NCBI GenBank assembly: GCA_000442125.1
Contig: KE546965.1
Coordinates: 1,240,001-1,304,000, forward strand
Length of the DNA: 64,000 nucleotides
Origin: Opeltia flavorubescens
Lineage: Eukaryota > Ascomycota > Lecanoromycetes > Teloschistales > Teloschistaceae
Reading direction: 5' to 3'
Below the pieces are notes generated by a model. That model ran no database searches, had not been told where the DNA came from, and worked only from the letters and a program-made list of their open reading frames with translations. The position numbers were made by a program, and so were the translations under genes. Of this stretch, positions 19,904 to 24,760 are shown in pieces (within the stretch, counting starts at the first letter, position 1; every line of letters starts with the position of its first letter).

Positions 19904-22107
19904 ATGTATTTTACTGTGCTCCCTTTTGCCTCGCTGCTCTTGTTACTGTCAACAGCAGTCGCTGAGCTGAATCTTCTCACCTTCGCTGACGGAGGGTTGG
20001 GCCAGGTCTTAGGAAGCGCATTTGGTCTTCCCGGTACAAATGCGACTTTTGACTACGTCGTCGTAGGGGGCGGCACTGCCGGTCTTGCCGTTGCAACGAG
20101 ACTGGCTTCTGACCCTGGCATAAGTGTTGCTGTAATTGAAGCTGGAGGATTCTACGAGATTGACAATGGCAATCGGAGTGTTGTTCCAGGTTACTCCAGC
20201 TTCTACACTGGGGCTGATCCGCAAAACTATCACCCGCTCATCGATTGGGGGTTCGTGACCGAGCCACAAGAGGTATCCTGCATTACTTAACGTATTTTTT
20301 GTTCTCTAAGTCTGATTAGGGACATAGGGTGCTGCTCAAAGGAGGATTCATTATGCGCGAGGAAAGACTTTAGGAGGAAGTTCGGCAAGGAATTACATGG
20401 TTATCCATCGGTAGGTCTCACATTCATAATATACAATGATCTGACCCATAATCAACAACCAGGCCAACCAAAGGATCCTTGCAAAAATGGGCTGACGAAG
20501 TCGGTGACGAGACTTATCGGTGGGATAATTTCTTTCAATACTACAAAAGATCGTGTAACTACACCACATTCAACAAAACCCTCTATAACGCCACCATCGG
20601 CCAGGATCCCAGTGCTTTCGATCCTCAGGGGGNCCCATTGCAGGTCTCATTCAGCAACTATGCAGATCCGTTCGGGTCCTGGGCTCAAAAGGGTTTTACC
20701 GGAGTCGGTATGAATCTGCAGGATGGATTGAACAGCGGGATCCTCAATGGATCTTCCTTTGGAACATTGTCAATCGATCCACGCAACGGATATCGCTCAT
20801 CGTCGGAATCCAGTTTCTTACAAGCAGCTTTGCAGCTTGGGACCGCGCCAGTGATTTACAAGAATTCGCTTTCTACTCGCATCCTTTTCGACGAGAATAA
20901 CACAGCGACCGGCGTATCGGTCATTACGGCTGGCCCGTATGGCATTCCTCAACTAAACTACACTCTGAGCGCCCGCAAGGAAGTCATAGTCTCAGCCGGA
21001 ACTTTCCAATCCCCTCAACTCCTCATGGTCTCTGGAATCGGGCCTCGGGATCAGCTGGAGAAGAATAACATCCCAGTCAAGAAAGACCTCCCAGGCGTCG
21101 GCCAAAATATGTGGGATCACGTCCTTTTCGGGGTCAGCAACCGTGTGAACGTCCTGACGGCTTCTGCCAGCCTAAACAGTCCAGCAGTGGCAGCCCGATT
21201 AGCAGAACAATTCCGAACTAATGGCTCCGGCCCTCTCGCGGCCTTCGGTGCCGGCTACTATGGATGGGAAAAACTCCCCCAGCCATACAGAAACGCTATA
21301 TCAGACCGATCCCTCCAAGACCTCGCGACCTTTCCGGCAGACTGGCCAGAGCTAGAATGGCTCCCTGTTTCCTCGTTCCTGGGGTACCAACGCAATCGTC
21401 AGACCGAGGATCCACGCGATGGATACAATTACGCCACCATAAATCCAGGTCTCGTGGCTCCGTTGAGCAGAGGTAACATCAGCATCAAGTCAAGTGAAAT
21501 GACGGACCCACCTATCATCAACCCGAATTTCCTATCCCACCCCACGGACCAGGAACTCGCCGTCCAGGGCTTCAAGCGTGCGCGTCAGATCTGGAGTATC
21601 TTGTCCGACGCCAGTTTGACCATCGGCAACGATGAATATTTCCCCGGCTCGAACGTCACTTCAGACGCAGATATTCTAGACTTCATACAACGCTCCCTCA
21701 TGACAAGTTACCACGCGTCTAGTACTTGTAAGATGGGGAAATCAGAGGATAGGATGGCTGTGGTAGATAGTAAGGCGAGGGTATTTGGTACGCAGGGCTT
21801 GAGGGTTGTGGATGCGAGTGCATTTCCGTTCCTGCCGCCGGGGCATCCACAGAGTACGATTTATGCGCTTGCGGAGAAGATTGCGGAGGATATTCTTTTG
21901 GGAGTTGGGGGAGTAACGAGGGAGGGGTATATGCTGGAGGAGGAGGAGTTGGTGAGGAAAGGTGGTAAGGGAGTGAAGGGAAAGAATTCGAGCGAGACGC
22001 AGGATTCTGGTGTAGGGAGGGTGGACATTGGGTCATGGGGTTGGAAGGGTACGATCATAACTTGGATTGGAACTGTAGTGGGGTTGATCATATTGGGAAT
22101 ACTGTAA
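19904..22107 (+). CDS. GMC oxidoreductase, secreted and membrane-anchored
   Basis: Three exons, 19904-20272, 20328-20410 and 20463-22107, with introns of 55 and 52 bp; 698 aa. The start MYFTVLPFASLLLLLSTAVA is a signal peptide. FAD binding is shown by YVVVGGGTAGLAVATRLA and VIEAGG, then ARGKTLGGSSARNYM across intron 1. GMC signature 2 is present as GTFQSPQLLMVSGIGP. Catalytic-site histidines lie in TSYHASSTCKMG and PFLPPGHPQSTIYALAEKIA. The family oxidises alcohols, sugars or aryl alcohols while reducing O2 or quinones; the substrate cannot be read here. There are many N-glycosylation sequons. After the domain comes a charged linker (EEEELVRKGGKGVKGK) and a hydrophobic C-terminus (IITWIGTVVGLIILGIL) that fits a GPI signal or a single membrane span. 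Base 20633 is N, so one residue is unknown. Confidence 0.9.
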
Positions 22108-22673: not shown

Positions 22674-23555
22674 CTACTTGGAATTACCTGGCCTCATTGG
22701 AGGCTTCGTCTCCGTCAAAGTCAACTCGTCTGTCGACTTCATTTTCAGCTTCCTTCTCTGCATCGAATCCTTGGTCCACTCCGAGTACTCTGTCGTCTCC
22801 GCCGAAACCATCGTCTCCCTCGATTCCCTCATATCCGTCGACTTCCTCTCCCTCGGTGACTCCCTCACTCCCTTTGATGCCCCACTCCCGTCACAATTCC
22901 TGGCTCCTTTCAATCCCCTACCCCCCTTGACATTCCTACAATCCACGCAGTTGACACAATCCGTACAATTCGTACAATCGATGCAATCGACGCAATCTGT
23001 GCAGTTTCGGCATCCGTCACAGTTTGAACAGTTGACAGAATTTCGGCAATCGTGGCATTCGGCGCAGTCGACACAGTTCCGACAATCGTGGCAGTTGGTG
23101 CAGTTACTGCAATTGCGGTTGTTTCCGCCGCCGCGGCGGCCAGTAGTGGTGGCCTTGGTACAGTAACGGTATCTGCTTCCTTGTTTCTTGTTACGGGTGC
23201 AGGTGCTGGGGCAACGGTCGAAGAAGGAAGGGAAATATAGACAGCATGTGAATAGGCTGAAGGGATGGGACCTGGGTTTGGGAGTCTGGGGACGGGAGCG
23301 TGGGGAGGATGATAGAGATGAGGAATGAGATGGAGATATGGAGTAGGGGGGCGGTGGGTCGAAGTTGGAATTGGACTGAGCGAGACGGGCAGAATTTGTG
23401 GACATGGAGCGCTTGAGGTGGATGAAAGGAGAGTGAAGAGGTTTGAATAGCCCCGTGCGTGATGGCACGGGTGGGGTGAAGAATGGATGTGGAAGGCATT
23501 GCGAGCAGCTGATGTTCACTAGACGGGCGGGATGGATTTTGAGAAGAGATGACAT
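22674..23555 (-). CDS. Protein with strict period-3 cysteine repeat
   Basis: A single exon of 293 codons from the ATG at 23555. A second ATG at 23405 (MSTNSARLAQ, 243 aa) is equally possible and places the motif DPPPPYSISPS near the N-terminus. Parts in order: Ser/Pro-rich N-terminus; a Cys/aromatic patch LFTCCLYFPSFFDRC (residues 101-115) that could be palmitoylated or membrane-associated; a basic linker (TTTGRRGGGNNRN); then a Cys-x-x array at residues 149-208; then a charged Glu/Arg/Ser-rich tail. The array has 20 triplets in perfect register, 19 with Cys and one with Ser (residue 173), and the x positions are mostly Asn, Asp, Thr and Val. Such spacing could bind metals or build a regular Cys-lined structure. 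No function is known to me. The opposite strand is also open here but encodes only a Gln/Ser mirror of the repeat. Confidence 0.6.
   Translation of the reverse strand: MSSLLKIHPARLVNISCSQCLPHPFFTPPVPSRTGLFKPLHSPFIHLKRSMSTNSARLAQSNSNFDPPPPYSISPSHSSSLSSSPRSRPQTPKPRSHPFSLFTCCLYFPSFFDRCPSTCTRNKKQGSRYRYCTKATTTGRRGGGNNRNCSNCTNCHDCRNCVDCAECHDCRNSVNCSNCDGCRNCTDCVDCIDCTNCTDCVNCVDCRNVKGGRGLKGARNCDGSGASKGVRESPRERKSTDMRESRETMVSAETTEYSEWTKDSMQRRKLKMKSTDELTLTETKPPMRPGNSK
22938..23111 (-). repeat. Nine-base tandem repeat encoding (Cys-x-x)20
   Basis: On the plus strand the units read like CAATCN3 variants: each nine bases carry the complement of one Cys codon pair and its spacers. Register is unbroken for 58 residues (C149 to C206), although codons have diverged by many substitutions. 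Confidence 0.85.
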
Positions 23556-23869: not shown

Positions 23870-24760
23870 ATGTCCAATCCCCGCGTCGAAGAAGTATCCG
23901 ACTCGGATTCAGACCCATCAATCGATGATCCCACCTCCTACGCGCTCTCCCTCATCCACCCATCCCAGATCCCTCCTCCAACATCGTCCCGGCAACCCAA
24001 CAACAACCACGAATATCTCCAACCCCAATACAACACCACCAAAGACCCCGAAGCACACAAACACTATCAATGCATCTATCCGCTCTACTTCGATGCCTCC
24101 CGTACTCGCGCCCAAGGCCGGCGCGTGGGAACAGAATTAGCGGTGGAAAACCCACTAGCTAGAACGATTGTGGACGCCGTTGCGGAGTTGGGACTGCAAA
24201 CGGTGTTTGAACCGGGGAAGGTGCATCCGAAGGATTGGGGGAACCCGGGGAGGGTGAGGGTGTTGCTCAAGGATGAGGAGGGGAGGAGCCAGAGCAGACG
24301 GGTGAAGAATAGTACGGTCCTATTCTTTCAATTTATTGTCAAATGTTGCTTTTGAATACTACATGTGTGCTGATGAGGATGAGTAGAACACCATCTCTAC
24401 ATCCTCATCTCCAAATACCTCCTCTCCCACCCCACTACACCTGATTCCCCGTTACGGCTTCGTGTTCACGGCATGCCTATGCCCAATGAGAAGGAAGCTC
24501 CGCCGCCGCCGGCCGTACCAAGGGGGTGGAAGTTGAATGGTATTTTGCCAATGCATAGTCCAGCGTTGAGTGGAGGTGGGGTGAGCGAGAATATACTGAA
24601 GGATATGATGGCAGGGATGCAGGGTGGGGGTATACCAGGAATGCCTCCAGGGATGGCAGGGATGCTTGATGGGATGGATGGCGGCGGTGGAGGAGGAGGA
24701 GGAGGTGGTGGTGGTGGTGGGAAGAAGAAGGAGAAGGGAAAGGGTGGAAGGAAGGGATGA
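23870..24760 (+). CDS. SEC65: Signal recognition particle subunit SRP19 (Sec65)
   Basis: Two exons, 23870-24311 and 24387-24760, with a 75-bp intron (GTACGG donor, GAGTAG acceptor); 271 aa. The SRP19 fold starts near residue 65: HYQCIYPLYFDASRTRAQGR, RVGTELAVENPLARTIVDAV, HPKDWGNPGRVRVLLKDE, then VKNKHHLYILISKYLLSHP across the splice. SRP19 binds the tip of SRP RNA helices 6 and 8 and enables SRP54 loading, so secretory proteins can be targeted to the ER. The C-terminal part is Gly/Pro/Met-rich (GMQGGGIPGMPPGMAGML) and ends in 14 consecutive Gly and a Lys-rich tail (KKKEKGKGGRKG) that should contact RNA. The N-terminus is acidic and Ser-rich (VEEVSDSDSD), usual in fungal homologues. It is convergent with TAF4. 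Confidence 0.95.
24680..24721 (+). repeat. Poly-glycine codon tract in SEC65
   Basis: Fourteen successive GGN codons (GGC, GGT, GGA and GGG mixed) encode an uninterrupted Gly run before the Lys-rich tail. Codon mixing argues against simple recent slippage of one codon. Confidence 0.8.

Follow-up and report, generated by a model that had tools for sequence, protein, structure and literature searches.

A cysteine array with a 12-residue period in a fungal open reading frame, its likely beta-solenoid fold and similar arrays in viral, bacterial and archaeal contigs

Described systems with regularly spaced cysteines

The nearest described architecture to the array reported here is that of the Tenebrio molitor antifreeze protein (TmAFP; 1EZG/1L1I; repeat TCTxSxNCxxAx; Pfam PF02420). 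In the portion of its published account that was available, TmAFP is built of 12-residue coils in which every third residue points inward, with C2-C8 disulfides crossing the core (PMC8038014). Fungal ice nucleators are presented, in the accessible part of a recent report, as homologues of the bacterial solenoids, with a repeat domain that is built of 16-residue units and has its cysteines close to the ends (PMC13288671). Cysteine at mostly every third residue also occurs in heterocycloanthracin-type precursors, which are short, Gly-rich and accompanied by maturation enzymes; the excerpted account of the Bacillus heterocyclic bacteriocin gives thirteen cysteines, mostly two residues apart, in an 88-residue precursor (PMC2674419). 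The Cys-rich repeats of Rusticalin were considered as a further relative and rejected, as their cysteine spacing is different in the available portions of the two sources (PMC7379824, PMC6339383).

Here, we analyzed 64,000 nucleotides of the Opeltia flavorubescens genome (contig KE546965.1, positions 1,240,001 to 1,304,000; hereafter the window), in which an initial annotation had reported an unbroken run of cysteine triplets in a predicted protein. This array resembles TmAFP in its predicted 12-residue coils, in which every third residue would point inward, in the cysteine and small residues that would make up the core and in the asparagine that precedes inward cysteines, and 1EZG is the best-scoring solved structure for the array profiles. 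It differs in having cysteine at four putative inward corners rather than two, in carrying neither a TCT within the array nor a PF02420 match, and in belonging to a protein of other context with no obvious signal peptide. The 12-position PF02420 profile gave no match in the fungus's own genome; among 14 control genomes, it rang below cut-off in one, that of Methanosarcina acetivorans. Ranks of TCT are absent from residues 147-230, the single TCT of the protein lying at 118-120, outside the array. Because there is no profile match and there are no TCT ranks in the array, the window protein fails the tests for the antifreeze family. The predicted architecture is of a known kind, the 12-residue solenoid, yet stands outside the antifreeze family by the profile and TCT tests. 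Searches of the window protein against Pfam and against NCBIfam each returned no family at E ≤ 10; in particular, no metallothionein family profile (Pfam, NCBIfam) and no heterocycloanthracin-type leader or family profile (NCBIfam) matched.

A cysteine register and its 12-residue period

The array lies in a single-exon ORF on the minus strand (22674..23555) that encodes 293 amino acids counted from the first ATG; a second methionine at residue 51 (codon 23403-23405, minus strand) is a possible alternative start. From stop to stop, the minus frame is open for 305 codons, a length that was not reached when the intergenic stretch was shuffled 1000 times with dinucleotides preserved (largest 246). 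A 204-amino-acid ORF overlaps it on the plus strand. A GMC oxidoreductase ORF on the plus strand ends at 22107, and an SRP19 ORF on the same strand starts at 23870, with a minus-strand TAF4 ORF beyond; placed between the first two, the minus-strand ORF has room to be a separate gene. Two features of these neighbors were seen in passing: an ambiguous base at window positions 20632-20634 gives an X in the translation of the GMC oxidoreductase ORF, and a short plus-strand ORF just past the SRP19 match (24473-24760) contains a poly-Gly run, poly-Pro in antisense, and is perhaps the last exon of the SRP19 gene. In the assembly (34.4 Mb, 23 contigs), both the DNA and the array have a single match. 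Searched as a 243-amino-acid protein, the sequence weakly matched two extra places in its own genome (E 0.17 and 0.36), of which one (L003) has a stop inside and the other (L004), falling inside a reductase ORF that appeared unrelated by eye, was taken as chance. On inspection, neither methionine is followed by an obvious signal peptide.

Residues 147-206 comprise 20 triplets, with register positions spaced three residues apart at residues 149-206 (23111-22938, minus strand). The translation bears out the initial description of a perfect register of 20 triplets, with cysteine at 19 of the 20 positions and serine at one (residue 173). The unit is x-[Asn/Asp]-Cys: position 1 is variable, and position 2 is N in 10 triplets, D in 8, E in 1 and G in 1 (N/D in 18/20). 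Proline is absent from the 60-residue array and glycine occurs once. A pattern of nine in-register cysteines has three overlapping matches in the window, all within the array, and found no match in 100 dinucleotide shuffles.

The DNA beneath this pattern has drifted, as the annotation had also proposed: all 20 nine-base units differ from one another, mostly in the x codon and in third bases. Every one of the 20 codons at the cysteine position (19 Cys, 1 Ser) ends in T or C, whereas 12 of 20 x codons do (Fisher P = 0.003). Read in the antisense frame, 15 of these third-base sites at the cysteine position are four-fold free, and the plus strand carries a purine at each of them (15/15). This pattern favors selection on the minus frame, with transition bias as an alternative cause. 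Codon usage gives the minus strand no support, with scores of −0.054 for the whole minus ORF, −0.50 for the array and +0.19 for the tail, whereas the overlapping plus-strand ORF of 204 amino acids scores +0.106 and 15 other long ORFs in the window range from +0.07 to +0.23; a low codon score would be expected of any Cys-rich repeat.

Grouped in fours, the triplets form five putative 12-residue coils, all on the minus strand: RNCSNCTNCHDC (23082..23117, residues 147-158), RNCVDCAECHDC (23046..23081, residues 159-170), RNSVNCSNCDGC (23010..23045, residues 171-182, containing the sole Cys-to-Ser change), RNCTDCVDCIDC (22974..23009, residues 183-194) and TNCTDCVNCVDC (22938..22973, residues 195-206). 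Two degenerate coils follow, RNVKGGRGLKGA and RNCDGSGASKGV (22866..22937, minus strand), which retain the register and the leading Arg-Asn and have V, G, L, A, C, S, S and V at their inward positions. Beyond them are two more Arg-led twelves, RESPRERKSTDM and RESRETMVSAET (22794..22865, minus strand), in which the x-N/D-C pattern is lost, and then a charged C-terminal tail that runs to the stop (22674..22793, minus strand).

The grouping by four is visible in the variable residues. At a lag of four triplets, the x residue is identical in 7 of 16 comparisons (0.438, against 0.128 in shuffled sequences; z 4.1), the top result of 32 lag tests. Arginine comes first in eight of nine successive twelves, including those beyond the cysteine array, in a stretch of 108 residues that holds 12 arginines. 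Of 20000 shuffles by residue none matched this count, and of 20000 by triplet four did; the pattern had been noticed before the statistical test. Asparagine occupies coil position 2 in all of the first seven twelves (7/7). At the level of DNA, TRF reports a 36-bp tandem repeat of 2.1 copies (23029-23104), and identity within the array peaks at 36, 72 and 108 bases (0.618, 0.602 and 0.625). Taken alone, the 36-bp DNA period is weak, being equaled in 144 of 20000 shuffles, or in 322 of 4000 with six periods allowed.

Two motifs precede the array. A PPxY motif at residues 68-71 (23343..23354, minus strand), within FDPPPPYS, is one that we take to be a possible WW-domain ligand. A hydrophobic, Cys-containing patch, FSLFTCCLYFPSFFDRCPSTC, spans residues 99-119 (23199..23261, minus strand) and includes the stretch CCLYFPSFFDRC (residues 104-115) to which the initial annotation had attributed a possible membrane anchor. 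The stretch exists, and anchoring by it is plausible in that the highest 19-residue hydropathy of the whole protein sits in this patch; the value itself, a KD of 0.71, is low for a transmembrane helix, and S-acylation would fit. The presence of both a PPxY motif and a hydrophobic cysteine patch ahead of the putative rod suggests a peripheral membrane adaptor.

Similar arrays in viral, bacterial and archaeal contigs

Viral contigs were scanned in two ways, by cysteine register and by the N/D-Cys rule. Filtering the matches on register, N/D content and diversity left at least 72 segments, each 20 triplets long, many of which are parts of longer ORFs. In a bacterial and archaeal collection, at least 53 ORFs passed a looser filter and 31 more failed it. 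Many of the pattern matches in the bacterial and archaeal listing are low-complexity noise; by eye, eight of the 53 ORFs listed are natural arrays (L248, L270, L287, L289, L297, L314, L322 and L336). Diverse x-[N/D]-C arrays were seen in the genome contigs L270 and L297 (Helicobacter) and L287 (Nanohalarchaeota).

These ORFs follow the same triplet rule as the window array and are mostly in register. Amongst 85 array ORFs from the matches listed, 2473 Cys-Cys spacings measure 12 residues or fewer, 2305 of them exactly three, and 18 of 20 interruptions preserve the register. Cysteine was replaced in register in 21 cases, by S (10), L (4), F (3), R (2), G (1) and Y (1); H, D and E do not occur among the replacements. 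The viral-contig ORFs listed carry up to 57 register cysteines (L142, 57; L188, 56; L128, 54), and array length runs from 21 to 59 triplets in 46 listed viral and bacterial arrays. An SLxNC-like N-cap precedes 41 of the 85 listed arrays. Fifteen viral and bacterial members (L231:1702-2286, L136, L142, L147, L164, L167, L184, L203, L221, L224, L229, L232, L289, L314 and L322) form a family in which an N-cap leads into the first NC, the cysteine array varies in length and the C-terminal domain (NPxR...GSR...CGCFxG; cut short in L314) is conserved.

The viral and bacterial ORFs, such as L231, L128 and L270, differ from the window protein in their N-caps and C-terminal domains and, as a group, in having no common four-triplet period. 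An early hint of a shared period (43 listed arrays; z 2.7 at one position and 0.3 at the other) was not upheld with 58 arrays from the matches listed, in which the period is absent from the group (z 0.1 and 0.3). Four is the commonest best lag at the DNA level, in 8 of 46 listed arrays, yet this is not decisive. Given that the four-triplet period is not group-wide, the 12-residue grouping is shown for the window array and not for the viral and bacterial ones.

A catalogued phage family also matches the array. The PHROGs profile phrog_15341, labeled as of unknown function, matches the window array (E = 1.2 × 10−8, 35.7 bits), L231 (E = 4.1 × 10−31) and L128 (E = 8.7 × 10−28). Its match to the window protein spans profile positions 37-98 of 276, that is, the array only; the N- and C-terminal parts of the fungal protein are unmatched, and the similarity falls short of full-length coverage. 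By tblastn, 21 of 50,697 phage records match the window protein, all at less than 60% identity, and these are phages of Campylobacter (17), Vibrio (3) and Flavobacterium (1). All 15 of the phage matches listed (of 21) overlap the array. Three Campylobacter phage records (H6, H14 and H15) contain seven to eight matching places in one record, hinting at a multi-copy family within one phage. Two plasmid records match as well. With L231 as the query, no phage record matched, and when the 243-amino-acid protein was searched against viral contigs, three loci were confirmed of 17 candidates, each with its match over the array.

Some of these phage genes already bear labels. The Vibrio phage records name the array gene ‘insect antifreeze protein’, and one Campylobacter phage record has PF02420 notes; ORFs so annotated include L360:2354-2728 and L361:2363-2788. 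Such labels may have arisen because a 12-residue profile rings on the cysteine spacing; with Pfam, no family rose above cut-off for the array ORFs L168, L128, L231, L360 and L361. In view of the viral-contig arrays, the phrog_15341 match and the antifreeze and PF02420 labels in phages, the initial statement that no family with this form had been described needs amending. Among the literature matches listed, examined mainly through titles and the openings of abstracts, we found no description of x-[N/D]-C arrays; the nearest printed case, from the portion of that paper available, is the Cys-Xaa-Xaa bacteriocin (PMC2674419), a different kind of gene.

Predicted fold, alternative explanations and implications

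We compared the arrays with solved structures using sequence profiles. A profile built from the window array and 28 of the at least 72 viral-contig arrays (A1) found 1EZG, the Tenebrio antifreeze protein, as its best match (E = 4.1 × 10−6; next match 0.48), with a large HMMER bias term of 31 bits. A profile of the 15-member family without the window row (A3) also placed 1EZG first (9.1 × 10−6; next match 0.032). Because such profiles are biased by composition, the TmAFP stretch, in which every third residue reads C, S, C, A, was shuffled with the HMMER bias correction turned off: none of 2000 shuffles attained the real score, and the same was true without the window row. Used alone, the window array matched 1EZG without a passing stretch (E = 0.034), a score that does not improve on that of the CpG-binding protein 3QMB (0.027). 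A match of the array to PDB chain 9e5c_0q, a long repetitive chain of ETV/EAT type, had E = 6.4 × 10−12 with no passing stretch and was set aside as composition; with the full protein, phmmer gave one weak low-complexity match, again to 9e5c (E 0.19).

An AlphaFold model was computed from the window stretch together with 23 of the at least 72 arrays (input A2). It reached a pLDDT of 70-78 at residues 147-186, the first three coils, with a beta bridge at every third residue in coils 1-2; overall, the mean was 58 and the pTM 0.40, and the second half was weak, which may be due to a three-column alignment gap at RNS. Foldseek found no significant match to this model (best E 2.3). Two TmAFP entries stood at ranks 3 and 10 of its weak list (TMt 0.30 and 0.24), and most of the 15 weak matches are, going by name, what we take to be beta-solenoids (pentapeptide proteins, TBCC, RP2). 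Pentapeptide-repeat proteins (MfpA, QnrB1, AlbG) are beta-solenoids with five residues per side and a Leu/Phe core. They are among the non-significant Foldseek matches and differ from the window array, which would have three residues per side: its periods are 3 and 12 residues, not five.

A 12-residue coil with small residues or cysteine at the inward positions is thus seen at the sequence level, with moderate support from AlphaFold and none of significance from Foldseek. The fold is likely, on profile and model evidence, to be a tight beta-solenoid with an inward cysteine core, and the array lacks the ice-binding TCT. The initial annotation had proposed a helix with three residues per turn, either polyproline II or a beta-solenoid corner, that would align all thiols on one face. 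The beta-solenoid form gains support from the profiles, from the 12-residue period and from the available part of the TmAFP account (PMC8038014). Its thiols, however, would point inward at four corners per coil and not lie along an outer face, and the polyproline II version finds no support in an array with no proline and one glycine among 60 residues.

Several other explanations must be weighed. As a soft-metal store, the 19 cysteines would bind Cu(I), Zn or Cd in a metallothionein-like cluster or a thiolate-lined channel; 19 cysteines in one register within 60 residues speak for this, as does a reducing compartment, which is plausible because no signal peptide is obvious by eye at either methionine. 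A metal sponge has no need of a 12-residue outer pattern, however, and the searches of Pfam and NCBIfam at E ≤ 10 gave no match, and the replacements in the listed arrays (21 cases) bring in S, L, F, R, G or Y and never H, D or E. We regard storage of metal as rather unlikely. The same cysteines might instead be oxidized, forming a disulfide-bonded solenoid or redox ladder with a cross-core S-S bond in each coil, as the C2-C8 disulfides of TmAFP do with the same geometry in the portion of its account consulted (PMC8038014). Such a domain appears unlikely given that a signal peptide is not obvious by eye, that viral-contig ORFs among the matches listed have up to 57 register cysteines, and that L and F are found among the cysteine replacements in viral and bacterial arrays.

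Two further explanations were considered. The array could be a chance minisatellite, with a repeat of nine or 36 bases lying in antisense or non-coding DNA whose frame is open by accident, and the overlapping 204-amino-acid plus-strand ORF, the codon scores that prefer it (+0.106 against −0.054 for the minus ORF) and the 36-bp repeat called by TRF are all in keeping with that. It is nonetheless improbable that chance alone accounts for the array, since its 20 units all differ, mostly in third bases and the x codon, with a pyrimidine at every third base of the cysteine position (20/20 against 12/20 at the x codon; P = 0.003), since no shuffle in 1000 yielded so long a frame as 305 codons, and since the same amino-acid pattern recurs in viral-contig ORFs. 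A precursor of a modified peptide, like the Bacillus Cys-Xaa-Xaa heterocyclic bacteriocins, would share the Cys-x-x period; here the spacers are N/D-rich rather than Gly-rich, NCBIfam gave no match, the window protein has 243-293 amino acids against 88 residues in the precursor as described in the part of the report available (PMC2674419), and the three neighbors tested are GMC oxidoreductase, SRP19 and TAF4. We give this last possibility very little credence.

On balance, we lean toward reading the array as a translated and selected domain: a beta-solenoid of five full and two degenerate coils with a cysteine core, serving as an adaptor or spacer. Each coil would have 12 residues in four sides of three. 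Every third residue would point inward and be cysteine, so that thiols would make up the small core of the rod. The Asn or Asp before each cysteine and the first residue of each triplet would face outward and form ladders, with Arg-Asn at positions 1-2 of nearly all coils and Asp or Gly at position 11. The architecture would be the Tenebrio-type antifreeze fold with cysteine at four inward corners rather than two and without the TCT ice-binding face. In the cytosol, the thiols would be mostly reduced and act as core packing, and oxidation could cross-link every coil. Core packing is favored because of the strict register, because cysteine changes to S, L or F and never to H, D or E (21 cases), and because of the residues at the inward positions of coils 6-7; judged from these sequences, the in-register replacements appear to suit core packing better than metal ligation. 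The protein would most likely work as an adaptor or spacer at the membrane periphery, perhaps S-acylated, with a partner bound by the patterned ladders on the outside of the rod.

More broadly, and more tentatively, x-[N/D]-C arrays may be a beta-solenoid class in its own right, widespread, with sides of three residues and an all-Cys core that works reduced in cells. Such a class would have arisen or spread in at least one fungus as well as in phages, bacteria and archaea, and its members would be mislabeled or unlabeled in databases. The fungal member would then be a eukaryotic, apparently non-secreted version, a rigid, chemically striped rod on an adaptor protein.

If the favored reading of the fungal array is right, the compact 12-residue solenoid, known from the secreted, disulfide-bonded antifreeze proteins of beetles, extends to a fungal protein, in a version without an obvious secretion signal and with cysteine at nearly all inward corners. 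It raises the questions of whether a core of about 20 thiols can fold and remain reduced in cells and of what the outer ladders bind. It would also tie the fungal array to a set of unexplained phage proteins, and those phage records in which a gene is labeled ‘insect antifreeze protein’ would merit re-examination.
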